32,984 bases of DNA. Source: Gammaproteobacteria bacterium (GTDB lineage: Bacteria; Pseudomonadota; Gammaproteobacteria; Steroidobacterales; XN24). The notes beneath the pieces are model-generated. The model did no database searches. It saw only the letters and a list, made by a program, of their open reading frames with translations, and was not told where the DNA came from. Positions 1-28,943 of this stretch are shown here, one piece after another (the first letter of the stretch is position 1; each line of letters begins with the position of its first letter). The translations under genes were made by a program, and so were the position numbers. The stretch lies in the NCBI GenBank assembly GCA_020341735.1, contig CP070833.1, positions 338,900 through 371,883 on the forward strand, given 5' to 3'.

Positions 1-1
1 C

Positions 2-161: not shown

Positions 162-177
162 TGGCACCGAAGTTGCA
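162..177 (+). promoter_or_regulatory. Sigma-54 (-24/-12) promoter, P1
   Basis: TGGCAC-N5-TTGCA, a full match to the RpoN consensus, with GG and GC separated by the required 12 nt. The expected transcription start is near 188, almost on top of the GTG codon chosen for the next gene. The mRNA would therefore be nearly leaderless, or the true start lies slightly elsewhere. It would drive the receiver-PP2C gene and the overlapping HATPase gene. Confidence 0.7.
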
Positions 178-188
178 TTTTGGTGGTT

Positions 189-1496
189 GTGAGCACGATT
201 ACGACATCGCAATCAGACGATCATCCGTCCACGCGACCGACCCATGACATCGCCGAGGTTGAGCGGGCCAACCGTAATCCGACCCGCTCGGTACTGGTCG
301 TAGAAGACGACGCTGCTGAGCGAGTAAGGCTCTCGGCAATTCTCGAGAAGATGCAGTTCGATGTGGTGTGCGCGGGGGAAGGCCAAGAGGCGGTCGGCCT
401 ACTTGAAGCCGGCTATCGCCCGGGGATTATCATCAGTGACTGGAGTATGCCGGGCATGGACGGGGTAGAACTGTGCCAGTGGGTAAGGCGTCTCGCGAAC
501 TCGGACAACTTCTATTTCATTCTCGTGACCGGTCGGGACGGTTCGTCAGTCGTGGAAGATGGCCTGAACGCCGGCGCGGACGATTTCATCGCCAAACCCT
601 ATCGCGGCGCCGAGCTACGAGCTCGGGTCGAGGCCGGCCGCCGGGTGGTCGGCCAGCGCGCTCACCTGCAAGAAAGCAATTCTCAGCTCCGGCAGTTTCT
701 AGCGGTGAAAAAGGCTTCAGAGCAGCGCCTCACGTCCGGACTTGAAGCGGCGGCTAAGCTGCAGAGGAGACAACTTCCGCCGCGTTTGAGTGTCGTCGAA
801 GGCGTCGAATGCGGGCGCATCTTTCACTCTGCCGATGCGTTGGCCGGGGACGTCTTTGGATGCGTCCGGCTATGCGGTAACAGGGTGGCATTCTATCTCC
901 TTGATGTCGTCGGGCATGGCTTTTCGGCTGCATTGAATTCTTTTGCGATTGGGCGGATTTTCTCGTCGAACAACTCGCTGGCGGAACTGTGCATGGACGA
1001 TGGCCTGCCATGCGCTCCCAGCAAAGTGATTCGCCGCCTCAACACACAGTTCCTTGGCGACGAGGAGTGCGACCAGTACTTCACCATGATCTACGGCACG
1101 CTGGATACCCGAACGGGATCAGGCTCGATATGCCAGGCGGGTCATCCGCACCCCATGGTCCTTGGACGTGATGGCGGTGTTCGCCTCCTGGGCACCGGCG
1201 GGTACCCGGTGGGGCTGCTGGAAGAAGCTGACTACGAGGACAGCGACTTCTCTCTTGAACCTGGTGATCGTTTGACGCTTTTCTCCGACGGAATAATCGA
1301 ATCAAGCGGTCTCGACGGTGAAATGTTCGGTTACGACCGTCTCTCAAAACTTCTTTCCTCTATTCAGGATATGCCGCTTGGTTCCGCGCTCGATAGCATC
1401 GAAGCCGATCTGAATGAATGGCAGAACGGAAAAGATCTAGACGATGACGTGTCGCTGATGGTCATCGCTCGTACAGGCGTCGAGGAAGGCTCATGA
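189..1496 (+). CDS. Response regulator with C-terminal PP2C (SpoIIE/RsbU-type) serine phosphatase
   Basis: This protein probably dephosphorylates the STAS antagonist encoded at 2048 when its receiver domain is phosphorylated. Counting from GTG 189, a CheY-like receiver spans about 33-155, with acidic pair D40/D41, phospho-acceptor D84 in a SDWSMPGMDG loop, T114 and K136. A helical linker (about 155-200) leads to a PP2C/SpoIIE domain whose metal-binding Asp residues are visible as GDVFG (D221), LDVVGHG (D239), FSDGI (D367) and the late DDDVSL. The stop overlaps the HATPase start by 4 nt, indicating translational coupling. In-frame TTG 180 and GTG 183 are alternative starts, but they lie upstream of the transcription start predicted from P1, and no clear Shine-Dalgarno marks any of the three. 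The layout is that of RsbU/SypE-like partner-switch regulators; the inducing signal is unknown. Confidence 0.9.
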   Translation: MSTITTSQSDDHPSTRPTHDIAEVERANRNPTRSVLVVEDDAAERVRLSAILEKMQFDVVCAGEGQEAVGLLEAGYRPGIIISDWSMPGMDGVELCQWVRRLANSDNFYFILVTGRDGSSVVEDGLNAGADDFIAKPYRGAELRARVEAGRRVVGQRAHLQESNSQLRQFLAVKKASEQRLTSGLEAAAKLQRRQLPPRLSVVEGVECGRIFHSADALAGDVFGCVRLCGNRVAFYLLDVVGHGFSAALNSFAIGRIFSSNNSLAELCMDDGLPCAPSKVIRRLNTQFLGDEECDQYFTMIYGTLDTRTGSGSICQAGHPHPMVLGRDGGVRLLGTGGYPVGLLEEADYEDSDFSLEPGDRLTLFSDGIIESSGLDGEMFGYDRLSKLLSSIQDMPLGSALDSIEADLNEWQNGKDLDDDVSLMVIARTGVEEGS

Positions 1497-1894
1497 AGCA
1501 GCTTCTTCTGATCAATCTCAAGCCCGACAACATCCCGCGGGCCGCAGATTGGATAGAGTCCATCTGCCGGTCAGAAGGGCTGCCCGAAATGGACTCCTAC
1601 CAGGTCAAGACCTGCGTCGTTGAAGCTATCAATAACGCAGTGGAACACGCTTACGGGTTCGGCAAGGGCACGATCAACATCGGCCTCTGGAAAGAAGGCC
1701 GACAGATGATGATCGAAATCAGTAACGATAACGAGAATAGCCAATCAGTTGACTTCGCCCAGGATGCCGAGCCTGTGCCCGAGTCCGAGCGCGGCAGGGG
1801 CTGGCTGATCATCAAGTCCTGGGTCGACGACGCCGTGATGAAACGCCGCGGCGGCCGCACTGTCGTTCGTCTCACGAAAAGGATTCCCATTTAG
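1493..1894 (+). CDS. RsbW-like anti-sigma/serine kinase (HATPase_c_2 family)
   Basis: A 133-aa stand-alone GHKL ATPase domain of the RsbW/SpoIIAB type, expected to phosphorylate a STAS antagonist and to sequester a sigma factor or other partner. The N-box is clear (EAINNAVEHAY, E44/N47/N48) and a GRGW turn (101-104) stands where the G2 box lies. The usual D-x-G-x-G of the G1 box is not evident: residues 78-82 read NDNEN. Kinase activity is therefore less certain than the fold. The ATGA overlap with the PP2C gene places both in one operon. No sigma factor gene lies nearby, so the sequestered partner may be encoded elsewhere or may not be a sigma factor. Confidence 0.88.
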   Translation: MKQLLLINLKPDNIPRAADWIESICRSEGLPEMDSYQVKTCVVEAINNAVEHAYGFGKGTINIGLWKEGRQMMIEISNDNENSQSVDFAQDAEPVPESERGRGWLIIKSWVDDAVMKRRGGRTVVRLTKRIPI

Positions 1895-1982
1895 GCATTC
1901 CGCCCTAACCCGCGATTTGCATTCTGCACGCGAGCCCTTTCGGTTCCTCCGCAACTTATTGTTTTTAATGCCACTTCCGTTT

Positions 1983-1998
1983 TGGCACGGCACTTGCT
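1983..1998 (+). promoter_or_regulatory. Sigma-54 (-24/-12) promoter, P2
   Basis: TGGCAC-N5-TTGCT, a full RpoN consensus match with correct 12-nt GG-to-GC spacing. The predicted start at about 2009 leaves a 39-nt leader before ATG 2048. CATTCTGC at 1920-1927 is one mismatch from the octamer seen upstream of P1 and P6, at 63 nt start to start. It separates the STAS gene from the PP2C/HATPase pair and, with no later terminator visible, probably drives the plus-strand operon to 15962. Confidence 0.8.
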
Positions 1999-2047
1999 TT
2001 GGCATTAGGGACACGAAATTATTCGGCGCTCATAACGGAGAAGAGCC

Positions 2048-2398
2048 ATGCACTTGCAAAGATTTGAAAACGGTACCGTTGATGTCATCCGCTTGCCGCA
2101 ACGGCTCACGATGGCTGACGCGGCGACCTACCGGCATGAAATTCGCGATCTCGTGGACGAGGGGCACACTCACCTGGTGATGGAAATGGGCGACGTCCAG
2201 TTCGTGGATTCCAGCGGCCTCTCAGTTCTGGTTTCGGCAATCAAGGCGGCCCGCAGCGCGGGCGGCGAAGTAGTTCTCTCCGGGTTGACGCCGCAGGTCC
2301 AGGCGCTTGTTGAGCTAACCAGGCTTCATCACCTGTTCGAGATCTTCGCCGACGAGCAATCCGCGGTCTTATTTCTCGACAGCCGCGCGGCCGCCTGA
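2048..2398 (+). CDS. STAS-domain anti-sigma factor antagonist
   Basis: A 116-aa single STAS domain of the SpoIIAA/RsbV/SypA type. The motif FVDSSGLSVLVSA carries the expected phospho-acceptor, S56 (second Ser of DSSG). In this family the RsbW-type kinase phosphorylates this Ser and the PP2C reverses it; the unphosphorylated form binds the partner. GGAG with suitable spacing precedes ATG 2048. The gene is followed after only 20 nt by the biosynthetic operon, so the antagonist is made together with the EPS enzymes it may control. Confidence 0.92.
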   Translation: MHLQRFENGTVDVIRLPQRLTMADAATYRHEIRDLVDEGHTHLVMEMGDVQFVDSSGLSVLVSAIKAARSAGGEVVLSGLTPQVQALVELTRLHHLFEIFADEQSAVLFLDSRAAA

Positions 2399-2418
2399 CG
2401 CACCACCGAGTTATTGAC

Positions 2419-3573
2419 ATGAGCAATCTCGACAAACGAACGCTTTCCATCGTCACATTTATAGACGCGCTGGGATGGGAAGTCCTCAAGGGCCGCAGTT
2501 TCATGGAGGAGGAACTGCCCCATCGACGTCCCCTGCGTTCAGTTTTCGGATTCTCCTCCGCTTGCGTTCCGTCGATCCTGACGGGCAGACAACCGCAGGA
2601 GCACGGACACTGGTCTTTCTTCTACAAGTCCCGGGGACCGTCGCCGTTCCGAGGCCTGCGCTGGTTGCGCCATCTGCCACGCAGAATCACGGATCGAGGT
2701 CGGGTCCGGTCGCAAATCAGCAAGCGTCTGAAGAAAAAATTGGGCTTCAAAGGGTACTTCCAGCTCTACAACATTCCGTTCCAGCACATTGATCGGTTTG
2801 ATTACTGCGAGAAGAAAGATCTCTTCAAGGCAGGCGGGATCAACCAGGGCAACAGCATCTTCGATCGACTCGACAATGCTGGAGTGGACTACCACGTTTC
2901 AGACTGGCGCAGCGGCGAGCCCGAGAACATCTCCAGCCTACTCGGCGCGATCAAACAGGATTCCATCCGATTCGCCTTTCTTTACATGGCCGATATGGAT
3001 GCCCTACTCCACCAGGTCGGCAAGAACAGCGATCGGGTGGACGAGAAACTTAGGTGGTACGAGCATCGCCTGAGAGAACTACTTGACTGTGCCGGACAGC
3101 ACTACGATGAGGTGCGACTGTTCGTCTGCTCCGATCATGGGATGGCAACGGTGCACACCCATGTCGACGTGATGGCGCAGATAGAGTCGTTACCGCTGGA
3201 GTTCGGCAAGGATTACCTCGCGACCTACGATTCGACCATGGCGCGCTTCTGGTTCGACGCCCCAGAGGCCGAAGCACAGGTGCGGCGAACCTTATCCAAT
3301 ATCCCTCAGGGCCGGGTCTTGTCACGTGATGAGCTGGAAGCGCTCGGTTGTGCATTCGCCGGCGATCAGTATGGCGAACTCATTTTTCTCGTCGACGCGG
3401 GCACGATCATTCTGCCCTCACACATGGGTACTGCGCCGATCACCGGCATGCACGGATACCATCCTGATCATGCGGACTCGGACGCTGCCTTGTTGTCAAA
3501 CGTCCCGCCACTGACAGATCCCCGTGGAATCGCAGATGTCTTCCACCTGATGGCCGCGGAGGCGGGCGCGTAG
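2419..3573 (+). CDS. Alkaline-phosphatase-superfamily hydrolase (type I phosphodiesterase-like)
   Basis: A 384-aa protein with the metal-site pattern of the alkaline phosphatase / nucleotide pyrophosphatase / sulfatase superfamily. D16 lies in an early IDALGWE segment. A nucleophile segment FGFSSACVPSILTG offers S46 or S47 as the attacking residue, followed by a TGRQPQEHGH stretch. YMADMDALLH (D192, D194, H198), CSDHGM (D239, H240) and GMHGYHPDH (H344, H347, H350) supply further ligands. No signal peptide or membrane segment is evident, so it probably acts in the cytoplasm. The substrate cannot be told from sequence; removal or transfer of a phosphate, phosphodiester or sulfate on a sugar or lipid intermediate is possible. 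It is the first gene after STAS and is 8 nt from the flippase gene. Confidence 0.8.
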   Translation: MSNLDKRTLSIVTFIDALGWEVLKGRSFMEEELPHRRPLRSVFGFSSACVPSILTGRQPQEHGHWSFFYKSRGPSPFRGLRWLRHLPRRITDRGRVRSQISKRLKKKLGFKGYFQLYNIPFQHIDRFDYCEKKDLFKAGGINQGNSIFDRLDNAGVDYHVSDWRSGEPENISSLLGAIKQDSIRFAFLYMADMDALLHQVGKNSDRVDEKLRWYEHRLRELLDCAGQHYDEVRLFVCSDHGMATVHTHVDVMAQIESLPLEFGKDYLATYDSTMARFWFDAPEAEAQVRRTLSNIPQGRVLSRDELEALGCAFAGDQYGELIFLVDAGTIILPSHMGTAPITGMHGYHPDHADSDAALLSNVPPLTDPRGIADVFHLMAAEAGA

Positions 3574-3581
3574 GGGCCGGG

Positions 3582-5108
3582 ATGAACCGCTGGATTGTCA
3601 ACATCGGCTCCAGTTACGCCAGGTTTCTTGTGGCGATCGCAGCCGTCGTCTTCGTCACGCCAATCATTATCGAACGGGTGGGGCTAGAAGCGTACGGCAT
3701 CTGGGCGCTGGTACTCGCCACGGTCGGGCTCCTGGGACTCATGGACTTTGGTCTGGCCACTTCCGCCGTGAAGTTTATTGCGGAGCGGACCGGGGATGCC
3801 GACCGAGATGGCCGCAACCGGGTCATGTGCGCTCTGTTCACCGTGTATACCGGGATCTCCATAGCCCTGCTACTGGGCGTGACTGTGGCCACCCTTGGCG
3901 GGCCAGGCGAAAGTATGTTCGGCGAGACACGCGGGCAAGCAGTGTTGCTTCTGGCGGTCGGCGGATCTGTGGCTGCCGGTCTCTTCTTGAGTCTATTCCG
4001 GGCCGCACTGGCCGGCGCGGGACTGATGTATCTCGCCAACGTCGTCGAGATCATGGTGACGTTTCTGTATGTAAGCCTGACCCTGCTGTTCCTGGGCCTG
4101 GACTACGGCGTTCCCGGGCTCGCTGCGGCTTTGCTGATGTCTAGCTCGGCAGGGGCAATCAGCCTGGCGATCATCGCCCGGCTGCGAATCGAGGGCCTCC
4201 GGCCGCGACTCACGCTGATGCGTTGGCGCGAGGTGAAGGGTCTGCTGAGTTTCTCGATCTGGGCATTTGTCGCGAATGCCGCGGTCCTGGCCATCCTGCG
4301 AATGGATCCGATAATTATCAAAGCATTCATGCCGCTATCTGCGGTTGCCGTCTACGCCATCGCCGGACGTATAGCGGAATACGTTCTGTTATTGAATAAG
4401 CAATTTTCAAACGCGCTTATGCCGCTCGTATCCCAGGCCCATGGCCGCGGAGATGAAGCCGTTGTTGAGCGTGTTCTCCTTGACGGATCTCGGTACCTGA
4501 TGGCAATCGCGCTGCCGATGCTTGCCTTGCTCGCCTTCCACGCGGAAACATTGCTCTTGATCTGGCTCGGCGAGGATTTGCGTGCGGCCACGACTCCGCT
4601 TCGTCTTTTGTCGGTGGCGGTGGGCTTCAGCATCATCCAGCTAAACGCTGCCAACGTCCTCGGCATGACCGGCCGGCATCGATTCGTGGCGATAACGATG
4701 GGCGCCTCGGCCGCACTCAACCTGGTGGTCACCATCGCGCTGATTCCCGCCTATGGCCTGGTCGGCGCAGCGACAGCGACGCTCATCACCGCAGGCGTCG
4801 TCGAGATGGGCGTGATCCTCCCCGTAGCCTGTCGGCACCTCGGGATCAAAATGCGAACTTTTCTCCATCACGCTCTGGTACCAGGAATGGTCGGCGCAGT
4901 TTCGGCGACCGCAGTGGCGGCCGCACTGGCAACACAATCTCCACCCGACTCCCTGACGGGATTGGTGATTCACGGATCCACGGCAGTCGCCGTTGCCATG
5001 CCGGCAATGCTGTTTGTCGGACTGTCGCGCTCGGAACGTGAAAGCCTGTCTGGAACCATCGCACGGTTCGGGCGCCGTCGATCGGTAGCAAACGAGGGGA
5101 TTGCCTGA
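3582..5108 (+). CDS. Wzx-like polysaccharide flippase (MOP/MATE superfamily)
   Basis: A 508-aa integral membrane protein with roughly 12-14 hydrophobic segments along its length. The N-terminus (about 15-60) combines VTPIIIERVGLEAYGIWAL with LLGLMDFGLATS, the recurring start of Wzx/RfbX-type oligosaccharide flippases. In the Wzx/Wzy pathway this protein moves undecaprenyl-linked repeat units across the inner membrane. It follows the hydrolase gene by 8 nt, and its stop overlaps the acyltransferase start (TGATG), so it belongs to the same operon. Family assignment is firm; the transported repeat is unknown. Confidence 0.9.
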   Translation: MNRWIVNIGSSYARFLVAIAAVVFVTPIIIERVGLEAYGIWALVLATVGLLGLMDFGLATSAVKFIAERTGDADRDGRNRVMCALFTVYTGISIALLLGVTVATLGGPGESMFGETRGQAVLLLAVGGSVAAGLFLSLFRAALAGAGLMYLANVVEIMVTFLYVSLTLLFLGLDYGVPGLAAALLMSSSAGAISLAIIARLRIEGLRPRLTLMRWREVKGLLSFSIWAFVANAAVLAILRMDPIIIKAFMPLSAVAVYAIAGRIAEYVLLLNKQFSNALMPLVSQAHGRGDEAVVERVLLDGSRYLMAIALPMLALLAFHAETLLLIWLGEDLRAATTPLRLLSVAVGFSIIQLNAANVLGMTGRHRFVAITMGASAALNLVVTIALIPAYGLVGAATATLITAGVVEMGVILPVACRHLGIKMRTFLHHALVPGMVGAVSATAVAAALATQSPPDSLTGLVIHGSTAVAVAMPAMLFVGLSRSERESLSGTIARFGRRRSVANEGIA

Positions 5109-5755
5109 TGTCCAATTTGCCGAAACGCGCCATTTCGAACTTGCGGCACCGTTGGCTCGGCCACCGCCTCGCGGTTTTGGGCCGCGACGCATGGGTCGAT
5201 CGCCATGCCCGCATCGAATATCCAGGCAACGTGCATGTAGCCGCCGATGCACGCATTGAACACGGCGTGGTGGTTCGCGGCAACACGGCGGATTCCAGAG
5301 GCGACTCGCTGGCGGCCGGGACATCAGTGAAGGACTACGCGGTCATCAATGCCAACCAGGGTAACGTCACTGTGGGCGAACGCACATGGGTAGGCCCCTA
5401 CTGCCTGATCTACGGCAATGGTGGTGTGGATATTGGCGCCGATGTGTTGATCGCCGCTCACACCAGCATCAACACGGTGTCTCACATTGCCGAGCGCACA
5501 GATATTCCAATGAACGACCAAGGGATACGCTGCGATCCAATTGTGATCCAAGACGACGTCTGGATCGGCCTGAACTGCACCATCCTGCAAGGATTCACGA
5601 TCGGTCACGGTTCGATCATTGGCGCGGGCGCGGTCGTCACACGAGATATCCCGCCTGGATCGATCGCGGTGGGGACGCCGGCCCGTGTCGTCAAACAAAG
5701 ACAACAGTCCGATGTTGCAGATGCACGGTCGCTGCTGCTGGAGAGAGCCTCGTGA
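5108..5755 (+). CDS. Left-handed beta-helix (hexapeptide) O-acetyltransferase
   Basis: A 215-aa protein whose residues about 35-195 follow the imperfect hexapeptide repeat of the LbH acyltransferases. The C-terminus has the typical VVTRDIPPGSIAVGTPARVV ending of the maltose/galactoside acetyltransferase branch. The likely catalytic His lies in LIAAHTSINT (about residue 118). It would transfer an acetyl group from acetyl-CoA to a sugar hydroxyl or amine of the EPS repeat in the cytoplasm. ATG 5108 overlaps the flippase stop, and the next gene overlaps its stop by 4 nt (GTGA). The acceptor sugar cannot be told from sequence. Confidence 0.9.
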   Translation: MSNLPKRAISNLRHRWLGHRLAVLGRDAWVDRHARIEYPGNVHVAADARIEHGVVVRGNTADSRGDSLAAGTSVKDYAVINANQGNVTVGERTWVGPYCLIYGNGGVDIGADVLIAAHTSINTVSHIAERTDIPMNDQGIRCDPIVIQDDVWIGLNCTILQGFTIGHGSIIGAGAVVTRDIPPGSIAVGTPARVVKQRQQSDVADARSLLLERAS

Positions 5756-7035
5756 GCAACACCCAGCGACAGATGTCAGCACAGTCGGTCTGCCAGGCTG
5801 TTAACAGCATTCAGGTTCCGCGCCGTCTCGTAACCTCGGCCTGGGGAGGTACGGAAACCACGGTGATCGAGACAAGCCGTGCCTTGCAAGCGGAAGGTCA
5901 CCCGACCCGGGTGTTTACCAGCCTGGCAATGTCGGACCAGATCAGCGAGTGCATCGGCGACATTGAAGTCAGGCGATTCCCCTATGTCTATCCATTTCTC
6001 GGCCTGTCCCGGGAAGAATTGTGTGAGATGGATCGGAAGGGAGGAAACCTTGTATCCCTGGCCCTGCTGAGGGCGCTGCTTCGCGAACCTGGAGTGAACC
6101 TTCTGCACGCTCATTCCGGCAAGCGACTCGGAGGCATTGTGCGCACCGCCGCGCGGCTCCGCGGTATCCCGTATGTCGTCACGCTACACGGCAACGTTTT
6201 CGATGTGCCGGACGAAGAGAAAACCGATCTGGTCAAACCCATTCGCGGCAAGCTGGAGTGGGGTCGCCCACTCGGACTGATGCTCGGTTCCCGGCGGGTC
6301 CTGGATGACGCTGCCGCAGTGATCTGTGTCGGGCGCAGCGAATATGAGGCTGCTCGGGACGCACTGCCGGGGCAGAGAGTGGAGTTTTTGCCCAACGGTG
6401 TAAATTCGCAGCACTTCGCTAAAGGCGACGGATCCAGATTTCGGGCGCGGATGGCGATTCCTGAATCCGCCAAGGTCGTTTTGTGCGTCAGCCGGATTGA
6501 TCCACAGAAGAACCAGCTCTCCCTTGTCGAGTCCATGCCGGCCCTGCTGGCCGCAGCACCGGATGCACACCTGGTGCTTGTGGGTCCGGTCACAAGACCG
6601 GCCTACCTGGCTCGGGTCAGGTCACAGATTGAGGCGCTCAATCTGGTCTCCAGAGTGCACGTCATCGAGGGACTGGCACCGGACGACCCTTCCCTGGTCG
6701 AGGCCTATCATGCGGCGGACGTATTCTGCCTGCCGTCCATGCATGAACCATTCGGCATCGTGATCCTGGAGGCCTGGGCAGCGGGACTGCCGGTGGTGGC
6801 TTCGCGGGTCGGAGGAATACCCAGCTTCGTCGCCGACGGCGACGACGGATTACTGGTTCCACCTGGTGATGTCCATGCTCTGGCGCAGTCTTTGAAAGCC
6901 GTCCTTCGGAATTTCGGTCTCGGCGCAAGTCTCGGAGATAGCGGTCGCCGGCGGGCTTGTCGCGAGTTCGACTGGTCAGTCATCGCCGATCGTGTCCTCG
7001 CTCTGTATCGGGACATTCTCCGGAGGCATCGCTGA
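5752..7035 (+). CDS. GT4-family glycosyltransferase (first of three)
   Basis: A 427-aa GT-B fold enzyme. The acceptor half has a GGTETTVIETSRAL segment and VVTLHGN. The donor half has VLCVSRIDPQKNQ and the E-x7-E motif EPFGIVILEA, the nucleotide-sugar site of GT4 enzymes. GTG 5752 is chosen as start because GGAGAG stands 6 nt upstream and the codon overlaps the preceding stop (GTGA); the frame stays open further upstream, but that part is antisense-like and lies inside the acyltransferase gene. It adds one sugar, probably with retention of configuration, to the lipid-linked EPS repeat. Donor and linkage are not predictable. Confidence 0.9.
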   Translation: MSNTQRQMSAQSVCQAVNSIQVPRRLVTSAWGGTETTVIETSRALQAEGHPTRVFTSLAMSDQISECIGDIEVRRFPYVYPFLGLSREELCEMDRKGGNLVSLALLRALLREPGVNLLHAHSGKRLGGIVRTAARLRGIPYVVTLHGNVFDVPDEEKTDLVKPIRGKLEWGRPLGLMLGSRRVLDDAAAVICVGRSEYEAARDALPGQRVEFLPNGVNSQHFAKGDGSRFRARMAIPESAKVVLCVSRIDPQKNQLSLVESMPALLAAAPDAHLVLVGPVTRPAYLARVRSQIEALNLVSRVHVIEGLAPDDPSLVEAYHAADVFCLPSMHEPFGIVILEAWAAGLPVVASRVGGIPSFVADGDDGLLVPPGDVHALAQSLKAVLRNFGLGASLGDSGRRRACREFDWSVIADRVLALYRDILRRHR

Positions 7036-7036
7036 T

Positions 7037-9309: not shown

Positions 9310-9650
9310 GAAACAGCCTCGTTTGCCTGCTGCTGACTGTTGTCGGCTGCGCCAGCGACTATGCCGAAGCTCCGGAGATGCGCGCGACGGAAGACGGCAG
9401 TACTGCGGCACTCGTGCAGATCAACTCGTCGCCCACCGAAGCATGGATATTCGTGGACGGAGAGTATGCCGGCATCACACCCATGGAGCAGGAACTCAGT
9501 TTCTGGGCAGCGACCCGGTACGTGGAGGTGGTGGCCGTGCCCATGTATCCGGCCCAGGCGCGTCAAGTAAAGCGGTTGCGTGTTCCGCCACTGCCGCACA
9601 CGCTCTTTTTCAACATGAATAATCCGCCGGTTATGGCATCGAGTGAATGA
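9306..9650 (+). CDS. Small PEGA-like outer-envelope lipoprotein
   Basis: A 114-aa protein with a short positively charged start, a hydrophobic core and a lipobox LTVVGC (Cys15), so it should be lipidated in the periplasm. The mature part contains INSSPTEAWIFVDGEYAGIT, which follows the pattern of the PEGA repeat (short beta-strands with a V-D-G-x-x-x-G-x-T-P turn). PEGA domains occur on surface-associated or envelope proteins; no enzymatic residues are evident. It sits between the last GT4 gene and the AAA ATPase gene, overlapping the former by 4 nt, which suggests a structural role near the export machinery (inference). Confidence 0.75.
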   Translation: MRNSLVCLLLTVVGCASDYAEAPEMRATEDGSTAALVQINSSPTEAWIFVDGEYAGITPMEQELSFWAATRYVEVVAVPMYPAQARQVKRLRVPPLPHTLFFNMNNPPVMASSE

Positions 9651-9651
9651 G

Positions 9652-15989: not shown

Positions 15990-15992
15990 CGG

Positions 15993-18238: not shown

Positions 18239-18264
18239 GGACGCCTTTTGCGGTACCGATCCTG

Positions 18265-19563: not shown

Positions 19564-19631
19564 GTCATTCGCTCCGGCAAAAGTTGTTTTGCAATCTGGG
19601 ACGCGGACAGGTCTCGATATAGGAATCATTG

Positions 19632-19647
19632 TGCAAATCGAGAGCCG
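19632..19647 (-). promoter_or_regulatory. Candidate sigma-54 promoter, P4
   Basis: Minus-strand CGGCTC-N5-TTGCA: the GG/GC core spacing and the -12 box are perfect, while the -24 box deviates at two positions. The predicted start at about 19621 gives a 58-nt leader before ATG 19563. It lies in the 308-nt divergent gap 19564-19871, which contains no convincing gene. Confidence 0.45.
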
Positions 19648-19737: not shown

Positions 19738-19753
19738 TGGCCTGGTTCTTGCT
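19738..19753 (+). promoter_or_regulatory. Candidate sigma-54 promoter, P5
   Basis: TGGCCT-N5-TTGCT with correct 12-nt GG-to-GC spacing; two -24 positions deviate from TGGCAC. The predicted start at about 19764 leaves a leader of about 108 nt before GTG 19872. This argues against the longer open frame that begins at 19629. It is divergent from P4. Confidence 0.5.
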
Positions 19754-21596: not shown

Positions 21597-23701
21597 ATCA
21601 GAACCTGAAGGTTGGCTGGCAGGTGAGCCGTTTTTCACTAGTCGGGATTTCCAACACGGCGGTGGATTTCATCGCCACCAACATTCTTTACTTTCTGTTA
21701 GCGCCAGACGATGACTCGGGTCTGTTGCTGATTTCGATTATTGCCTGCCTCATCGCGACCGCTAATTCCTTTGTTCTAAATTCGCGCTGGACGTTTGCGG
21801 AGGTCTCTGATGCCGATCACTCTTTGTCGCGTTTTCTGGCGACAGCGGGTGTGGGGATGCTCGTCAACACGGCGATATTTCTGTTCCTCATGCGTCATCT
21901 GCCGCTGTCCGGTCTGACCGACGATTATGTCGCCCTGAATCTCGCCCGGTTCGGCGGCGTCGTCGCCGCCATGGGGGTCACTTTCTGCGGCTACAGGCTG
22001 TGGGCCTTCGCACCGGGTCTCGCAGCGCGTCGTCGGACAGCCGACGATGATCTCCAGCCCAAGGCGGTGTTTTCTGCCGGGCCGTTCCTGATACTGATGG
22101 CCGTGGCCCTGGCGACGCGGATCGTAGTTCTCTGGATGGCTCCCGTCATTTACGGAGACGCTGTCAATTACGCCTGGGTTGCGCGCCTGACCGCCAGCGG
22201 ACATCTTGAGACCGTCGACCTCTTCTGGCACAGCCTGTTCGACTTCTGGCAGGTGCTGTTTGTGTGGCTGGGCGCGGGGCAATATGCGGCGCCCGTGCTG
22301 GCAAGCCTGATACCAGGCGTTCTGCTCGTCTGGCCGGTCGCCCTGATCACGTGGCGCCTGTATGGAAACCGCGCGGCCGGATTATCTGCCGCACTGGTGG
22401 CACTACACCCCAGATTGGTGGAGTACTCCCTCAATGGTTACGCAGAGAGCTTCTATATGCTCGGTGCCACATGGGCGACCTATGGCCTTGTTATTTTGGC
22501 GAGAGAACCACGGCGGCTGACGGCCCTTTTGGCTGCAGGCCTTGGACTGTCCGCGTGGATCCTGGTAAGAAACGAAGCTCTCTTGTTCGCCGCAATCGCC
22601 ATCCCGCTAGCGCTCTTAAGTCAACGCCATATGTGGCGGGAGATCGTCAGATCGGCTGTATGTGTTGCAATCATCGTAAGCACCCTTGTCGTCGCCTATG
22701 CATTCACGAATCTCGTCTTGTGGGGCGAGCCCGGTCTGGTCCAGAAAGGCAGCAATCTTGCTCGTGAACATGTCGAGATGCTGGATCCGCACGAGGCAGC
22801 CAGAGAGACCTATGGGGTCACAGCACCCGTTGCGCAACAGCCCGATGCCACTGCGATTGTCCGCAAGCTGGCCAAACGCTGGCCCGGGAATATCCGCTAC
22901 ACGGCCGAGCGATTGCCCGGCATGCTGCTGTCACCGATTATTCTGTTCGCCCTTCTGCTGCCGATACTGGGGCCGCGCAGATCCAGTTCAGCTTCGCCCA
23001 CTTGGCCTGTGATTCTGTTGGCAGCCTGGCCGATCGCTTTCTATCCGCTCATCCAACTCGAACCGCGGATGTTATTTCCTACCCTGATCGGCGCAATCAT
23101 ATTCGGCAGCGCCGGGGCGTTGCTGGCAGGCCAGCGCCTCGCCGGCCTTGTGCCCAGACATCGGACTCTCGTTCAGTGGGCCCCCGGGTTCGTCACATTG
23201 CTTCTGTTGCTGCCCTTGATCCCACTCCTCGCCTGGCACTCCGGCAGCGAGCGTGGGTTTCACCGCGAGGTCGGCACGTGGCTCGCAGAGACGCTTCCGC
23301 CGAACGTGCAAATTGTCGGTGACGGCTATGGATACGTGAGCGCCAGCGCTTTCTGGGCAGGGCGCCGCGCCGAACCTCGAATGTGGACTGACGACAAAGA
23401 GATTCTGGCCAACAGTGTTGGCGACAACGCCGTCCTGATTTTGTACGAACGGTATCTCCGTGAGGCCAACCCGGAGTTACTCTCGTCCCTCGATGACGGG
23501 CTACCCGGGATGATCCGGATCGTGGAGTTCGATTTCCCCCGTATCGGCCGCGTGCAGGCTTGGCGCCATATCGATGTAGTCGAACATGTCCGGGAAAAGC
23601 GGCGCGGTACTGTTGGCGTTGTCGACTCTATATCTCAACGTAATATACTCAAGCGTGCGTCTACTCCTGCGAACGCGTTGATTCCGGGAGATGAGATATA
23701 G
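21578..23701 (+). CDS. Fusion: GtrA-like flippase domain + GT-C polyprenyl-linked glycosyltransferase
   Basis: A 707-aa membrane protein. Residues about 14-145 form a four-helix GtrA domain (FSLVGISNTAVDFIATNIL, NSFVLNSRWTF, FCGYRLWAF). Residues about 165-560 carry many more hydrophobic helices in the manner of the PMT/ArnT GT-C superfamily, with D194 in the first external loop (VIYGDAVNYA) as the likely catalytic base, and a soluble C-terminal region. GtrA proteins flip polyprenyl-phosphate sugars, and GT-C enzymes use them on the periplasmic side. ATG 21593 is an alternative start; neither ATG has a strong Shine-Dalgarno. With the upstream fusion it forms a complete Gtr-like modification pathway in two proteins. 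Confidence 0.87.
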   Translation: MEMYPMNQNLKVGWQVSRFSLVGISNTAVDFIATNILYFLLAPDDDSGLLLISIIACLIATANSFVLNSRWTFAEVSDADHSLSRFLATAGVGMLVNTAIFLFLMRHLPLSGLTDDYVALNLARFGGVVAAMGVTFCGYRLWAFAPGLAARRRTADDDLQPKAVFSAGPFLILMAVALATRIVVLWMAPVIYGDAVNYAWVARLTASGHLETVDLFWHSLFDFWQVLFVWLGAGQYAAPVLASLIPGVLLVWPVALITWRLYGNRAAGLSAALVALHPRLVEYSLNGYAESFYMLGATWATYGLVILAREPRRLTALLAAGLGLSAWILVRNEALLFAAIAIPLALLSQRHMWREIVRSAVCVAIIVSTLVVAYAFTNLVLWGEPGLVQKGSNLAREHVEMLDPHEAARETYGVTAPVAQQPDATAIVRKLAKRWPGNIRYTAERLPGMLLSPIILFALLLPILGPRRSSSASPTWPVILLAAWPIAFYPLIQLEPRMLFPTLIGAIIFGSAGALLAGQRLAGLVPRHRTLVQWAPGFVTLLLLLPLIPLLAWHSGSERGFHREVGTWLAETLPPNVQIVGDGYGYVSASAFWAGRRAEPRMWTDDKEILANSVGDNAVLILYERYLREANPELLSSLDDGLPGMIRIVEFDFPRIGRVQAWRHIDVVEHVREKRRGTVGVVDSISQRNILKRASTPANALIPGDEI
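23619..23646 (+). promoter_or_regulatory. Possible sigma-70 promoter before the cyclase gene
   Basis: TTGTCG, a 16-nt spacer and TAATAT (4/6 match to each consensus hexamer) lie in the 3' end of the GtrA/GT-C gene, in an unusually AT-rich patch. The predicted start at about 23653 gives a 60-nt leader before ATG 23715. Weak evidence. No sigma-54 box was found before this gene. Confidence 0.3.
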
Positions 23702-23714
23702 GGAGAGCGGTTGG

Positions 23715-26700
23715 ATGAAGTGCCCCAACTGTCATAACGATACTAAAGAGAGCGCGAAATTCTGCGAGGAATGTGGGACACGTCTGATCGTTGCCTGCGG
23801 CTCATGCGGTACGGAGCTCTCACCAGCGGCGAAATTCTGCAGCGAGTGTGGTACGGCTGCCCAATCGACACAGTCGCCGGCACCCGAGGCGGATGCCCCT
23901 GTCACCCGGCATCCAGCGGCCACCAGCAGGACCGAGGACGTTGCGGCCGAACGGCGACAGCTGACGGTCATGTTCTGCGATATCGTGGGATCGACCGAGT
24001 TATCGGAAAAGCTGGACCCGGAAATCCTCAGAGAAGTGGTGCACTCGTATCACGATACGACGGGTCGCGTGATCGGTCGTTACGAGGGCCATAACGCTCA
24101 ATACCTGGGCGACGGTCTACTTGTCTATTTCGGCTACCCGATCGCACATGACGACGATGCCGAGCGGGCGGTTCGCGCGGGGCGCGAGATCATCACCGCC
24201 CTTTCAGAAATGAATGTAAGACTTGAGAAAGAACACGGCACAACAATCTCCGTCCGCGTCGGCATTCATACCGGGCCGGTTGTCATCGGCGCCGTCGGCT
24301 ACGGGGGACGACAGGAAAATCTGGCCCTTGGAAGCACAACCAATATAGCGGCCCGTTTCGAGAGTGCCGCAGAACCGAACACCGTCTTGATCAGCGAGAC
24401 CACACTGCGACTCATACCGGGCCTCTTCGTCACCGAAGAGGTGCCCATGCCGCCACTCAAGGGCGTCACGACACCGATCAGAGGTTATGTGGTACGACAT
24501 CCGAGCGGTGTGGGATCCAGCCTGGTCGACACGGTTCGCCTGACCCCGCTCGTCGGTCGCGAACTGGAAGTGGGTCTGTGCCTGGACAGGTGGGAGATGG
24601 TTCAGGATGGTGCGGGCCAGGCTCTCTTGATATCCGGGGATGCCGGCATTGGCAAGTCACGGCTGCTCACCGTTCTGCGCGAGCGCCTCGCCGATACGCC
24701 ACACACATGGCTCGAGTGCCGCGGTTCTTACTACATGAGACACACGGCATTTCAGCCTGTGACCGAACTCCTGCAACAAGCTGTCGGGTTCCAGGCGACG
24801 GATACCGTCGAAATCAAGCTGGAGCGTCTGCGCAAGGGTCTCGAGATCACGGGTGTATCCGTAGAGGATACCCTCCCACTGCTGGCGGCACTGCTGTCAC
24901 TGCCGCTGTCGGATGGTCAGGATCCGGTGTCGACGGTGAGCTCAGAAAAGCGTAAGGAAACGATTGCCGCCCTGGTAGGCTGGATTCACGCCGTCGCCGC
25001 AACGCAACCTCTGGTGTTGATTGTCGAAGACCTTCACTGGTGTGATCCGTCGACCGTCGAGTTTCTCGGCATTCTCATAGAACAGATCGAAGCTTCCAGA
25101 GTCATGGTGGTTGTCGCGTTCCGACCCGAGGCGAAACTGCCTTGGCCGGGGCGTTCCAATCAAACGCCGGTGGTCCTGAGTCCGTTGCGGCGCAGTCAGG
25201 TGACGTCAATGATCACAAGTGTCGCGGGCGGCCGGAGCGTTTCGAGTGAGATGGCCGAATTCATCATCGACAAGGCGGGCGGAATTCCGCTCTATGTCGA
25301 GGAAATCACGAAGATGATGATCGAGTCGGAGCAGGTCAACCTGGTGGATGGCCGCTACGAACTGGTCGGCCAGATTGACACGCTTTCGATCCCGACGACG
25401 CTCAAGGATTCGTTGATGGCGCGTCTCGATAGTCGCGCAGACGCGAAGGAGTTGGCGCAGTTAGCAGCGGTGATCGGTCGTGAATTCGGATACAGCCTGA
25501 TAGAAACTGTGACAGATCTGGACGAATCCGACTTGAGGCGGCGACTAGCGGAGCTTGTGGCGGCAGAGTTGTTTTACCAACGCGGCGTGATACCGGCGGC
25601 GACCTTTACTTTCAAGCATGCACTGATCCAGGACACCGCCTATCAGTCTTTGCTGCGCAGTGCCCGGCGTCGTTTTCACGCCCGGATTGCACAGGTACTC
25701 GAGTCGGACTTCCCTGAGCTCGTCATCGCGCGACCCGAGATGATGGCCCAACACTGCGAAACGGGGGGATTGGCCGAGCAAGCCCTTGAGTATTACGTTC
25801 GCGCGGGAGATGCGGCGGCGATGAGATCGGCTAACAGGGAAGCCATCCATCACTACGAAGGGGCGATCAAAACCCCTCGGACACTGCCGGATGTCGAGGA
25901 CCGCAGCCGCCAGCATTTGAATCTGTTGATGATGATCTCCGGTTGCCAAATGAGCGCCTTCGGCTGGGGTCATCCGGATGTCGCCAACACGCACAAGAGG
26001 ATCCAGAAGGTTTACAAGAACGTCGATGATCCTACGCTTGGCTCTGAGGCTTTGCTGGCACTGACCACCGCTGCCAATGTCAGGGCGGAATTCGATCAAG
26101 CACTGCAGCTGGCTGCAGATCTGTTGAATCTGGGCGAGTCGGCTAATGACCCATCGATTAGCTACATGCCGGAGTGTCAGCTGGGAGTGACGTCGTATCT
26201 CCAGGGGAAGTTGTCGGTCGCATTGAAACACTTCGAGCTCGCTGATGAACGCTATGACAACGAACGACATTTGCCGCTGACGCGTTATACGGGTTATGAC
26301 ATCAAAACATTGGCGCAGGCGTTCTCCGCGATGGTTATCTGGCTGCGAGGATTTCCTGATCAGGCCATTGCCAAAGGGCGAGAAGCCGTCGAGACGGCGG
26401 ACACAGTTCAGCATTTCGAAAGCGCTGTCATCGCGCGTTGTTTGCTCGCATGGGTATTGTTGATGCGTGGTGAACCATCCGCGGCGATGGCACCGTCCGA
26501 AGATGCAGTGCATACCAGCCAGACGCGGGAGCTGAAGTTCCTGGAAGGCTTCGGTCGTACGATGTTGGGCCTGGCGACGGCAGCGGCCGGCAACGAGCGA
26601 GAGGGAATCGAGGAATATCGGAACGGATGCCAGATTATGGCTGAAGCAGGTGCCCGATTTAACTCGACCGGGATTTTGAGTAAAGGCGCCGCTGCCTGTT

Positions 26701-27098
26701 TGCACGCCGGCGACCTCGGCACTGCCAAATCGGCGCTCGAAATCGCTTCCGCGTTTAGAGATGCGACTGGTGAACTCTTCTGGGAATCAGAATTACAGAG
26801 GCTCAATGGAGAAATCTGCCTCGCCGGTGACGACATAGATGAGTCTGAGGCAGAACAACATTTCCAGCAGGCGCTGGAAATCGCACGGGGACAGGGCGCG
26901 AAGTCATTCGAACTGCGTGCCGCCATGAGCCTCGCACGCTTATGGCAAAAACAAGGCAAGCAACAGGATGCCCTCGACCTGCTCGCTCCGATCCACGACT
27001 GGTTTGCCGAGGGGCTGGACACCGGCGACCTCAAGGATGCAGACGCCTTGCTGAAGATGCTGGGTGACAGCGGAACTACCGCCGCCGCCTCGAACTGA
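23715..27098 (+). CDS. Zinc-ribbon / class III cyclase / AAA ATPase / TPR regulatory protein
   Basis: A 1127-aa multidomain protein. Two zinc ribbons open it (C3, C6, C17, C20 and C28, C31, C42, C45). A class III nucleotide cyclase domain spans about 82-260, with metal Asp residues D89 (FCDIVGS) and D133 (YLGDGLLVYFG) and transition-state pair N210/R214. An AAA/STAND ATPase follows (Walker A GDAGIGKS 308-315, Walker B LVLIVEDLHWCD 433-444), then about 450 residues of TPR-like helices. The Lys that usually recognises adenine, just before the second Asp in this family, is Gln here (Q129), so cAMP production is not assured. AGGGAGAG precedes ATG 23715. It is probably a cytoplasmic signalling protein that links nucleotide or partner sensing to EPS control (inference). 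Confidence 0.88.
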   Translation: MKCPNCHNDTKESAKFCEECGTRLIVACGSCGTELSPAAKFCSECGTAAQSTQSPAPEADAPVTRHPAATSRTEDVAAERRQLTVMFCDIVGSTELSEKLDPEILREVVHSYHDTTGRVIGRYEGHNAQYLGDGLLVYFGYPIAHDDDAERAVRAGREIITALSEMNVRLEKEHGTTISVRVGIHTGPVVIGAVGYGGRQENLALGSTTNIAARFESAAEPNTVLISETTLRLIPGLFVTEEVPMPPLKGVTTPIRGYVVRHPSGVGSSLVDTVRLTPLVGRELEVGLCLDRWEMVQDGAGQALLISGDAGIGKSRLLTVLRERLADTPHTWLECRGSYYMRHTAFQPVTELLQQAVGFQATDTVEIKLERLRKGLEITGVSVEDTLPLLAALLSLPLSDGQDPVSTVSSEKRKETIAALVGWIHAVAATQPLVLIVEDLHWCDPSTVEFLGILIEQIEASRVMVVVAFRPEAKLPWPGRSNQTPVVLSPLRRSQVTSMITSVAGGRSVSSEMAEFIIDKAGGIPLYVEEITKMMIESEQVNLVDGRYELVGQIDTLSIPTTLKDSLMARLDSRADAKELAQLAAVIGREFGYSLIETVTDLDESDLRRRLAELVAAELFYQRGVIPAATFTFKHALIQDTAYQSLLRSARRRFHARIAQVLESDFPELVIARPEMMAQHCETGGLAEQALEYYVRAGDAAAMRSANREAIHHYEGAIKTPRTLPDVEDRSRQHLNLLMMISGCQMSAFGWGHPDVANTHKRIQKVYKNVDDPTLGSEALLALTTAANVRAEFDQALQLAADLLNLGESANDPSISYMPECQLGVTSYLQGKLSVALKHFELADERYDNERHLPLTRYTGYDIKTLAQAFSAMVIWLRGFPDQAIAKGREAVETADTVQHFESAVIARCLLAWVLLMRGEPSAAMAPSEDAVHTSQTRELKFLEGFGRTMLGLATAAAGNEREGIEEYRNGCQIMAEAGARFNSTGILSKGAAACLHAGDLGTAKSALEIASAFRDATGELFWESELQRLNGEICLAGDDIDESEAEQHFQQALEIARGQGAKSFELRAAMSLARLWQKQGKQQDALDLLAPIHDWFAEGLDTGDLKDADALLKMLGDSGTTAAASN

Positions 27099-27395: not shown

Positions 27396-28763
27396 TCAGA
27401 CCGTGTGTGATCGAGCCGCGGCGGAACGCCGCAGCAACCAGAGTGCCGCAATCTGGCGTCGCCGATTGCCATGAGTCGCCTTTACGACGCGGGGAAGCGC
27501 CGCAAGAAAACCGGCCAACATGAAGAACTCGACGGTCAGGTAGGTTTGGCGGAATGCCCACTCCAGGAAGGACTGCAGCCAGAATCCCAGCATGCCCACA
27601 AGAATCCCGACTGCCATCCAAGAGGCAGGGTCGTCTTGCCGACTAGCCACTGTCCTCAACCCGATCCAGAAGAAGTTGCCAATGAGAATCACGAAGGCGA
27701 TCAGCCCAGGCCACCCCATCTCGCAAGCATGTAACAAATAAATATTGTGCACGATGCCGCGGTCCATCTCGTTCGGAATATAGAGGGAGTACTTCGTCTC
27801 GTTGATCACATGAGAGTAGTTGTTGATACCGACCCCAAAAAGATGCTCGCTGGCCATTGCATAGGCGGCATCGTTGGCCTGCCCGCGACTTTCGCCCGAC
27901 GCAACGGGTGCATTTTGGAAGCGGTCGATAACGGCGGGTGCGAGCTTGATCGCAACCGGCATCGCCGCGAGTGCCATCAGTCCGACTAGGAGGAATTTTT
28001 GTCTGGTTGGTCGTAGGGCGATGGAAAACAGGACAACGAGCCCGTAGCAGCCGACCATCATCGCCAGCGCGCCACGCGAGAAGGTTGCCGCAACGATCAG
28101 CGTCCCCATACCCACACAGGCAAAATACAACCATCGCCGCCAGTGTCCCGGCTTCTCATTGAGGAAGAATGACAAGAAAATCATGTTCATCATGTTGATG
28201 TACATGGCGAGGGTATTTGGGTGGGGCGTCGAGCCAACTGCCCTGTACACACCGAATGCGCGCTGCTCAAGGACCAGGAAGAACTCCATGCAAACGATGG
28301 CTGCGAGTATGTAGAGAATAAAACGCAGGTCTTCCTCTTGCCGCAGATAATTGTATGCAACCCAGTACACGGCCATGGCCCGCAGCAACTTCATCAGGCC
28401 AAAGCCCGCATAGACGGGCACATAGGCAGCGATCGCTGATAGCAAGGCCAGGAGCATGTACAAGACGATCGGCCCCGAATTCGGCGGTAGTAGGGACAGG
28501 GACTGGCAACTCCATCTGGGAGAACGCGCCATTACGACGATCAGGGAGATCACCATCCAGTCGGTCAGTCCGAACTCGAATCCGCGAGTGTCGCCCCGAT
28601 ACCACTCCATCGACAACAGGTTGATATCCACCAGATAACAGGTGGAAAAGAAAGCTCCGGCGACGATGCCACGCTCTACCCAACGGTATCGACAACCCAG
28701 CCAGGCAGCCACGGGTATGAAGATGATCGCCGCGGCCAGGAATGTGTATTGCTTTGCTTCCAA
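27396..28763 (-). CDS. Wzy / O-antigen ligase family polysaccharide polymerase
   Basis: A 455-aa inner-membrane protein with about 11-12 hydrophobic helices. The Wzy_C region shows FSRGALAMMVGCYGLVVLFS. After the long periplasmic loop comes VHNIYLLHACEMGWPG, the H-N-x-x-L...E-x-G signature of O-antigen ligases and polymerases. TTG 28763 is chosen as start because a perfect AGGAGG lies 7 nt upstream and the product then begins directly with a membrane helix. The open frame extends to 29030, but that part would cross the divergent promoters. As the only Wzy-like gene here it is the likely polymerase of the repeat unit. Confidence 0.88.
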   Translation of the reverse strand: MEAKQYTFLAAAIIFIPVAAWLGCRYRWVERGIVAGAFFSTCYLVDINLLSMEWYRGDTRGFEFGLTDWMVISLIVVMARSPRWSCQSLSLLPPNSGPIVLYMLLALLSAIAAYVPVYAGFGLMKLLRAMAVYWVAYNYLRQEEDLRFILYILAAIVCMEFFLVLEQRAFGVYRAVGSTPHPNTLAMYINMMNMIFLSFFLNEKPGHWRRWLYFACVGMGTLIVAATFSRGALAMMVGCYGLVVLFSIALRPTRQKFLLVGLMALAAMPVAIKLAPAVIDRFQNAPVASGESRGQANDAAYAMASEHLFGVGINNYSHVINETKYSLYIPNEMDRGIVHNIYLLHACEMGWPGLIAFVILIGNFFWIGLRTVASRQDDPASWMAVGILVGMLGFWLQSFLEWAFRQTYLTVEFFMLAGFLAALPRVVKATHGNRRRQIAALWLLRRSAAARSHTV

Positions 28764-28788
28764 TGAAGGGCCTCCTGAATTCAAGGAA

Positions 28789-28804
28789 ACCAAGTTCCGT
28801 GCCA
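28789..28804 (-). promoter_or_regulatory. Near-consensus sigma-54 promoter, P7
   Basis: Minus-strand TGGCAC-N5-TTGGT: the -24 box is perfect, but the -12 box has GG where GC is expected, a normally conserved base. The predicted start at about 28779 sits just before the AGGAGG and TTG 28763 of the polymerase gene. The octamer at 28863-28870 lies 59-66 nt upstream of it. Confidence 0.35.
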
Positions 28805-28862
28805 GCGGGCATTTCTTGGCGAAATCGGCAGAGAACCTCGTCGCGGTTCGCAAATTGCCAAT

Positions 28863-28870
28863 CAATCTGC
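28863..28870 (+). promoter_or_regulatory. CAATCTGC octamer centred between divergent sigma-54 boxes
   Basis: The octamer is 65 nt (start to start) upstream of the -24 box of P6 and 59-66 nt from that of P7 on the other strand. One bound activator could serve both promoters. It is identical to 97-104 before P1, and related octamers lie before P2 (1920-1927) and P3 (18168-18175, inverted). The 218-nt divergent gap 28764-28981 contains no gene. Confidence 0.4.
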
Positions 28871-28927
28871 CGTCATCTCCTTGTCGACGGCCCCGAATTG
28901 CCGCGTCATCAAGGAGAAGAAGAGATC

Positions 28928-28943
28928 TGGCACACCTCTTGCT
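28928..28943 (+). promoter_or_regulatory. Sigma-54 (-24/-12) promoter, P6
   Basis: TGGCAC-N5-TTGCT, a full RpoN consensus match with correct GG-to-GC spacing. The predicted start at about 28954 leaves a 28-nt leader carrying AGGTGA before ATG 28982. It would drive the initiating transferase gene and the pseudo-nucleotidyltransferase gene behind it. Confidence 0.8.

Follow-up and report, generated by a model that had tools for sequence, protein, structure and literature searches.

A probable sigma-54 regulon over a Wzx/Wzy-type exopolysaccharide cluster of an uncultured gammaproteobacterium, with a LuxO/SypG-like candidate activator

Introduction

What switches on a large exopolysaccharide cluster whose genes are divided among several transcription units read in both directions? 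The question is raised by a 32,984-nucleotide stretch of a gammaproteobacterial genome of the order Steroidobacterales (GenBank GCA_020341735.1), hereafter the window, which coincides with a single contig (bases 338900-371883 of a 2.89-Mb record, with 100-N gaps on both sides). The window contains a Wzx/Wzy-type exopolysaccharide cluster whose left end is formed by a receiver-PP2C regulator, a serine-kinase-like ATPase and a STAS protein. The original prediction, drawn from the sequence of the window alone, was that a sigma-54 regulon is laid over this whole cluster, with -24/-12 boxes before its units and one enhancer-binding protein, encoded elsewhere, acting on all of them. Our analysis partly confirms this prediction, which holds with corrections: the window probably carries a sigma-54 regulon of eight units, in which one exopolysaccharide cluster and its regulators would be governed by a LuxO/SypG-like activator, a hybrid-kinase phosphorelay, operator-like dyads and a partner switch.

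Sigma-54 control of polysaccharide loci is already well known from syp, scv and rbd. The sections of PMC8941931 on these loci (syp is that of Vibrio/Aliivibrio fischeri) describe polysaccharide clusters in several operons, four each for syp and rbd, under the sigma-54 response regulators SypG, ScvE and RbdG, and report scv-type loci from the order Chromatiales. The abstract of Francke and others (2011, PMC3162934) ties sigma-54 to exopolysaccharide and other surface genes, and their main text mentions neither Chromatiales nor LuxO.

Results

Transcription units were inferred from gene directions and spacing, excluding a cytochrome-d1-like gene at the right edge, and sites were scored with a weight matrix whose weights, like the sigma-54 consensus, are approximate; the strict box was taken as TGGCAC-N5-TTGCW. 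A -24/-12 site is present at all eight unit starts, and in seven of the eight the GG-to-GC spacing is correct in the context TGGCAC-N5-TTGC. Five are exact boxes: that of the divergent unit, which is read leftward beyond the window's edge (16-31, minus strand, TGGCACAGAGGTTGCA, 19.1 bits), that before the receiver-PP2C gene (162-177, plus, TGGCACCGAAGTTGCA, 16.8 bits), that of the main biosynthetic operon (1983-1998, plus, TGGCACGGCACTTGCT, 19.2 bits), that before the acyltransferase (19501-19516, minus, TGGCACGCCGATTGCA, 19.6 bits, the window maximum) and that before the priming transferase (28928-28943, plus, TGGCACACCTCTTGCT, 18.7 bits). The acyltransferase site lies 37 nt before the ATG at 19464 and places the predicted +1 26 nt ahead of it. 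The site before the GT2 unit (18096-18111, minus, TGGCCCGTTACTTGCA) has an A-to-C deviation and scores 16.2 bits. That before GT2b (19738-19753, plus, predicted +1 at 19764) reaches 14.3 bits, and the one before wzy (28789-28804, minus, predicted +1 at 28778) is degenerate, at 13.7 bits with TTGG in place of TTGC, and is the exception in spacing.

The original prediction had placed canonical or near-canonical boxes at 162, 1983, 28928 and 18096, and all four are there. The three weaker boxes that it named, at 19738 (+), 28789 (-) and 19632 (-), were likewise found, and all six of its sites at unit starts are correctly placed; its further statement that every site has the GG-to-GC spacing fails at 28789. 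We reject 19632-19647 (-) as a promoter: it is probably a chance match, because it scores 10.95 bits, has no counterpart in the relative G033 described below and stands before the same gene as the far better site at 19501. The list was also incomplete, at six of the eight unit-start sites, the exact boxes at 16-31 and 19501-19516 having been missed.

Are so many sites expected by chance? For a loose pattern they are. With up to three mismatches the window has 52 matches against a shuffle mean of 55.3, and with up to one mismatch the whole genome has 81 against 99 for a reversed control. Strict sites behave differently. The exact box occurs 11 times in the 2.89-Mb genome, five of them within the 33-kb window; with three contig-end copies merged the count is five of eight (binomial P 1.1e-8). 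Allowing one mismatch, 8 of 81 fall in the window where 0.93 are expected (P 4.5e-6), and the densest stretch of equal length elsewhere (∼2.75-2.80 Mb) has 5. A comparison of densities by weight matrix, of the kind that the original prediction had proposed, bears it out, with 6 sites of at least 16 bits in the window versus 0 in 260 kb of background (13 x 20 kb) and 10 versus 2 at 13 bits or more; the background rate of sites of at least 10 bits is 7.4 per 33 kb. As a positive control, the pilA promoter beside PilR/PilS has an exact box of 19.2 bits. The claim that the number of sites exceeds chance is thus borne out for strict sites (exact, or at least 16 bits) and not for the loose pattern.

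Exact boxes outside the window were considered one by one. Those at 443611 and 443757 are rejected as a second locus, for they lie in a 247-bp copy, 98.8% identical, of the window's left end at another contig end (window 1-247 = L013 7597-7843). This pair ends at 100-N gaps and resembles overlapping contig ends, so that gene order across assembly gaps in this record is untrustworthy. A further duplicate of 991 bp (L010 7638-8628 = L016 7139-8128, 95.8%) includes the exact sites 97824 and 2776926. Its box (L010 7825-7840, minus; L016 7927-7942, plus) stands ∼18 bp before an 89-amino-acid open frame, and no GCA-N3-TGC dyad of the kind discussed below occurs within 220 bases upstream of the L010 copy. 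The exact site 2649920 falls within a long open frame.

The positions of the sites are kept in a relative. G033 belongs to the same order and another family, and its contig CAKZML010000025.1, from an uncultured Chromatiales metagenome-assembled genome and read over 40 kb, carries the cluster collinearly: 20 of the 24 window proteins are matched, the collinear ones at 42.6-69.5% identity, and over those 40 kb no match was obtained for four of them, namely the edge gene, the cyclase-like protein, the acyltransferase and the XrtA-type ATPase. Sites stand at 7 of 7 comparable unit starts, at 31825 (+) for site 16, 31656 (-) for 162, 29764 (-) for 1983, 14301 (+) for 18096, 14252 (-) for 19738, 8976 (+) for 28789 and 8830 (-) for 28928; the acyltransferase start (19501) is not comparable, its gene not being found there. 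Peculiarities are shared as well, since the counterpart of 18096 has the same A-to-C change and the -12 C is also missing before wzy in G033, where the sequence is TTGA. The counterpart of 19738 is stronger there, at 17.7 bits. In G447, a genome of the same class, an 8.7-kb contig (L076) holds a kinase, an activator, a serine kinase, a nucleotidyltransferase, the STAS protein and the start of the phosphodiesterase; 19-bit sites precede the nucleotidyltransferase and the STAS gene, the latter (7576, plus, 19.6 bits) corresponding to 1983. Together with the enrichment, the conserved positions in G033 give good support to the predicted sigma-54 regulon over the whole cluster.

The biosynthetic genes can also occur without such sites. 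In G720, of the same phylum, the phosphodiesterase, Wzx, acetyltransferase, a glycosyltransferase, PEGA protein, ATPase, Wzz, Wza and priming transferase follow in the same gene order and rpoN is present, and no site of at least 12 bits was found in the 20 kb read. We treat G720 as a soft control because its contig starts ∼2 kb before the phosphodiesterase. Judging by this contrast, such a cluster may acquire or lose sigma-54 control and still retain its biosynthetic genes.

Which protein might act at these sites? One Sigma54_DBD match (229.5 bits) shows that rpoN is encoded in the genome. No sigma-54 activator gene lies within the window, as the original prediction had said. In G033, the divergent side of the cluster leads into a hybrid kinase (GAF, PAS, HisKA, HATPase, REC and Hpt domains) and then a REC-AAA+-Fis sigma-54 activator beside the cluster, and in G447 a hybrid kinase followed by a REC-AAA+-Fis activator likewise adjoins cluster genes. 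The G033 activator has a 67% identical orthologue in our genome, at 1132862-1134241 on another contig (L075); the next own match is 39% identical. On its upstream side, just after a gap, is a kinase C-terminus (receiver/Hpt), and the activator is followed by a 501-amino-acid LruC/DUF4842 protein and a 148-amino-acid protein, as in G033. At the other end, the genes of L013, reading from site 16, encode proteins of 342 and 343 amino acids and then a kinase N-terminus with HisKA that ends at the gap. Kinase sequence is therefore present here as two fragments, one N-terminal and one C-terminal, each at the end of a contig. From this arrangement it is likely that a single kinase has been split by the gap and that the activator lies a few kb to the left of the window. 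We grade this adjacency as likely and no higher, because the matches of the kinase pieces to the relatives' kinases are confined to short common domains and because gaps are numerous in the assembly.

The pair LruC/DUF4842 protein and small partner follows the activator in both genomes (L075 2595-4543; G033, L060 17023-18998). Its unit has a weaker -24/-12 site in each (L075 4586, 14.3 bits; G033 39037, 15.8 bits), and the LruC protein may be secreted as a matrix protein under the same control. Across the three genomes the activator side is kept while the sensing side varies: two unmatched proteins precede the kinase here (L013 4546-7567), G033 has a GAF-PAS kinase (L060 12442-15306), and the G447 kinase (L076 238-4103) is preceded by a protein that looks like a phosphonate-type binding protein.

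The best NCBIfam match of all three activators is LuxO, at 648.6 bits for our own, 628 for G033 and 654.3 for G447, followed at a distance by the next-best match (392, 404 and 409 bits, respectively). None of them reaches the LuxO equivalog cut-off of 800 bits. The best solved structure for the activator is also LuxO (5ep0, 480 bits), and the GAFTGA loop is kept in all three. Because LuxO is the best model and its cut-off is not attained, we call the activators LuxO/SypG-like and, by that model, not LuxO. Two other identities were rejected. PrsR (TIGR02915) gives 383.1, 374.6 and 366.4 bits against a cut-off of 502.6. PilR is set aside as activator of the cluster because it adjoins pilA, which has an exact site of its own, and because no GCA-N3-TGC occurs within 220 bases upstream of the pilA site.

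Operator-like sequences were sought in the DNA upstream of our own and the G033 promoters, with promoter boxes masked, by ranking 4160 symmetric dyads. GCA-N3-TGC ranks first of the 4160, with 8 matches versus 0.62 expected (P 3.3e-7, ∼1.4e-3 corrected), and occurs exactly in 3 of 5 own and 4 of 5 G033 promoter regions. It is also the core of the published LuxO operator TTGCAWWWTGCAA; PMC10162802 gives both this operator and, as the SypG motif, TTCTCANNNTGMDWN. Two upstream regions of G447, which were outside the ranking, contain 3 matches versus 0.17 expected (P 7.6e-4), and two of these are one mismatch from a 15-bp motif, TTYGCANNNTGCRAA. This longer motif was first drawn by eye from the same upstream regions, and the dyad ranking and the G447 check are less circular. 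Activator family and dyad sequence, each reached by its own route, thus agree.

Within the window, two GCA-N3-TGC dyads lie between the divergent sites 16 and 162 (93..119, cores 96-104 and 108-116), where the 15-bp motif is found at 3 and 4 mismatches. One precedes the main operon (1916..1930, TTTGCATTCTGCACG), with its centre 61 bp from the -24 GG, and another is common to the divergent sites 28789 and 28928 (28847..28861, TTCGCAAATTGCCAA, 1 mismatch to TTYGCANNNTGCRAA). A weak operator-like sequence with 2 mismatches and an inexact core lies between the divergent sites 19501 and 19738 (19588..19602, TTTGCAATCTGGGAC).

The genes of the eight units are as follows. Beyond the unit that reads left out of the window, the first plus-strand unit (from ∼180) encodes the receiver-PP2C (SpoIIE) phosphatase (180..1496; Pfam Response_reg, SpoIIE), which resembles part of SypE, and an RsbW-type, serine-kinase-like HATPase_c_2 protein (1493..1894) with weak NCBIfam anti-sigma matches below cut-off. 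The main operon (2048-15962, plus) is led by the SypA-like STAS protein (2048..2398; Pfam STAS; 62% identical in G033 and 51% in G447), in which the stretch VDSSGLSVLV, with its Ser-Ser, is invariant across the three genomes. The remainder of this operon (2419..15962) encodes a type I phosphodiesterase, Wzx, an acetyltransferase, three glycosyltransferases, a PEGA protein, an XrtA-type ATPase, Wzz-like and Wza-like proteins and a GH9 protein, and is collinear in G033 except for the ATPase, which has no match there. The GT2 unit (15993..18009, minus) holds a GT2 glycosyltransferase (17131-18009) and a protein without a Pfam match, 68% and 48% identical in G033. The acyltransferase (18265..19464, minus; Acyl_transf_3) stands alone.

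Rightward of it, the GT2b unit (19872..27098, plus; start GTG 19872 or TTG 19785) encodes GT2b, a GtrA/PMT-like glycosyltransferase and, at its end, a protein with zinc-ribbon, cyclase, AAA and TPR regions (23691-27098) that has no match in 60 kb of G033 contig searched. The Wzy/O-antigen-ligase-like polymerase (27396..28763, minus) is 67% identical in G033, and its TTG start at 28763 is inferred. The last unit (28982..32414, plus) encodes a single protein in which a WecG/TagA-type glycosyltransferase is fused to a polyprenyl glycosylphosphotransferase (28982-31000), a fusion also seen in G033, and a nucleotidyltransferase (31011-32414); identities in G033 are 57% and 47%.

The cluster is rare and patchy. 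Its phosphodiesterase is found in 4 of 369 genomes of the class (our own included, two of them distant at 36%) and, at a stricter limit, in 2 of 398 of the phylum (our own included), and at the limits used the PP2C protein and the priming transferase have no match in six other listed genomes of the same family. A wider contig scan returned the G033 contig as the sole match, and plasmids gave none. With these two proteins unmatched in the same-family genomes and the cluster whole in a genome of another family, it has perhaps moved horizontally. Elsewhere, clusters that encode a priming-transferase or phosphodiesterase homologue show no set of sites like that of the window: G072 has one 15.7-bit site, G192 and G005 none above 12.7 bits, G566 one of 11.5 bits and G658 none above 11 bits. 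In G023 (L065, C30:40000-59000), three -24/-12-like matches of 14.3-15.9 bits lie in 19 kb beside a split WecG/priming transferase, again with no set like that of the window.

Discussion

The same promoter type at the operon starts and the same positions in a relative point to probable joint activation of the whole cluster by a single protein whose gene seemingly lies just outside the window. The original prediction of a single enhancer-binding protein encoded elsewhere therefore gains a named candidate, and control of all eight units by that one protein is the part of it that we infer. In the mechanism that we propose, a hybrid histidine kinase with receiver and Hpt domains would hand phosphate to the LuxO/SypG-like sigma-54 activator and, through its Hpt, perhaps also phosphorylate the receiver-PP2C protein. 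The activator would bind GCA-N3-TGC dyads that lie ∼50-130 bp ahead of the -24/-12 promoters, in some cases with a single dyad placed between two divergent promoters, and would open sigma-54 polymerase complexes at the units of the cluster, which include the kinase operon (positive autoregulation) and the partner switch. The PP2C protein and the serine kinase may, if SypE/SypA is a guide, set the phosphorylation of the STAS protein, which would then set polysaccharide output after transcription. According to PMC4517449, Vibrio SypE acts on SypA Ser56, and PMC11112999 calls the level at which SypA acts unknown.

A number of observations weigh against this reading. The candidate activator and the window are on different contigs; the similarity of the own kinase pieces to the G033 and G447 kinases is limited to the HisKA stretch (51 and 44 amino acids) and the receiver/Hpt end, and neither of the two proteins encoded between site 16 and the kinase is matched in the part of the G033 contig that was searched. 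In the PP2C gene, with the +1 predicted at 188 and in-frame starts at 180, 183, 189 and 351, translation would have to begin at a leaderless GTG (189) or internally. Two of the sites, 28789 and 19738, are weak, and matches as strong as these fall inside genes, at 10722 (-, 14.8 bits) and 27433 (-, 13.4 bits). No exact dyad occurs upstream of 18096 or of 19501/19738 (two of the five own regions), at the G033 STAS site (one of five regions) or in the 220 bp before our own LruC site. The 15-bp motif at one mismatch occurs at 15 places genome-wide, only one of them in the window, and so is no marker of the regulon by itself. The dyad background was drawn from our own genome only, the promoter search was confined to sigma-54 -24/-12 sites, and the regulators of G720 may simply fall off its contig.

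The weakness of two sites leads to the alternative that has most in its favor, in which only the strong sites (16, 162, 1983, 18096, 19501 and 28928) are promoters, 19738, 28789 and 19632 are chance or decayed matches, and GT2b and wzy are read from sigma-70 promoters. The missing -12 GC at 28789, repeated in G033, fits this view, as do the modest score of 19738, which two intragenic matches equal, and the lack of a counterpart for 19632. However, G033 carries a site in the corresponding position for both 19738 and 28789, that for 19738 reaching 17.7 bits, and we consider this alternative unlikely. Somewhat less likely still is that the promoters are real and answer to several activators, for example the LuxO/SypG-like protein at the dyad-bearing units and an NtrC- or PilR-type protein at GT2, the acyltransferase and GT2b. 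The genome has 8 Sigma54_activat matches, one of them weak (29.1 bits), among which identification beyond our candidate covered PilR only, and the units at 18096 and 19501/19738 are those without an exact dyad. Yet the dyad-less units at 18096 and 19738 keep their sites in the collinear cluster of G033, the inexact dyad-like sequence does lie between 19501 and 19738, and PilR has its own target at pilA, with no dyad in the 220 bases upstream. That the sites are a chance cluster, their agreement with G033 being inherited, functionless DNA, is very improbable: the loose patterns do lack any excess over shuffles and the reversed control, but strict sites are enriched, boxes are kept at every comparable start while the proteins have diverged to 42.6-69.5% identity, and no site of at least 12 bits was found in the 20 kb of G720.

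We thus favor one sigma-54 regulon, very probably a real one that works like syp. The window shares with syp, scv and rbd a polysaccharide cluster in several operons and a sigma-54 response regulator, SypG-like, that stands beside the cluster in G033 and G447 and has its own orthologue on another contig here. Further likenesses to syp, as PMC12369376 and PMC4517449 describe it, are the STAS protein and the PP2C/kinase regulator; the hybrid kinase with Hpt that stands upstream in syp has a counterpart in G033, where the genome here shows only the two kinase pieces. There are also differences: eight units here and four in syp; separate genes here for the kinase (1493-1894) and the PP2C protein (180-1496), which in syp are the single protein SypE; and dyads here that are closer to the LuxO operator than to the SypG motif. 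Gene order and content presumably differ as well, in the phosphodiesterase, GH9 and cyclase-like genes. We call the cluster syp-like and do not count it as a member of the syp group, because the SypE fusion is absent.

LuxO, the sigma-54 regulator of Vibrio quorum sensing, shares with these activators the best family, the best structure (5ep0) and the operator core GCA-N3-TGC, the last according to PMC10162802; the activators here differ in scoring below the 800-bit cut-off and in standing beside a polysaccharide cluster. A third comparison is RpoN/PrsK-PrsR control of PEP-CTERM genes in floc-forming bacteria, described in PMC9850573. The ATPase, Wzz and Wza of the cluster resemble parts of the XrtA system, below cut-off. 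The activators here, however, match LuxO far better than PrsR, and the mapped promoter in that account (PMC9850573) belongs to a PEP-CTERM protein gene. In an incomplete literature search we found no report of this cluster, or of a LuxO-type operator in such a cluster outside Vibrionaceae.

These results name, from sequence alone, a nearly complete candidate wiring for a polysaccharide cluster of an uncultured lineage: sensor kinase, activator, operator, eight promoters and partner switch. More tentatively, and with the balance of probability still against it, a LuxO/SypG-type activator acting through a LuxO-type operator may govern, in uncultured gammaproteobacteria far from Vibrio, a whole polysaccharide regulon, with its own kinase and a partner switch included and a secreted LruC protein perhaps among its targets. 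If this proposal is true, LuxO could descend from an older polysaccharide regulator that retained its DNA operator when it was later taken up for quorum sensing. Finding a LuxO-like activator and operator at a polysaccharide cluster outside Vibrio bears in any case on the origin of the SypG/LuxO pair.

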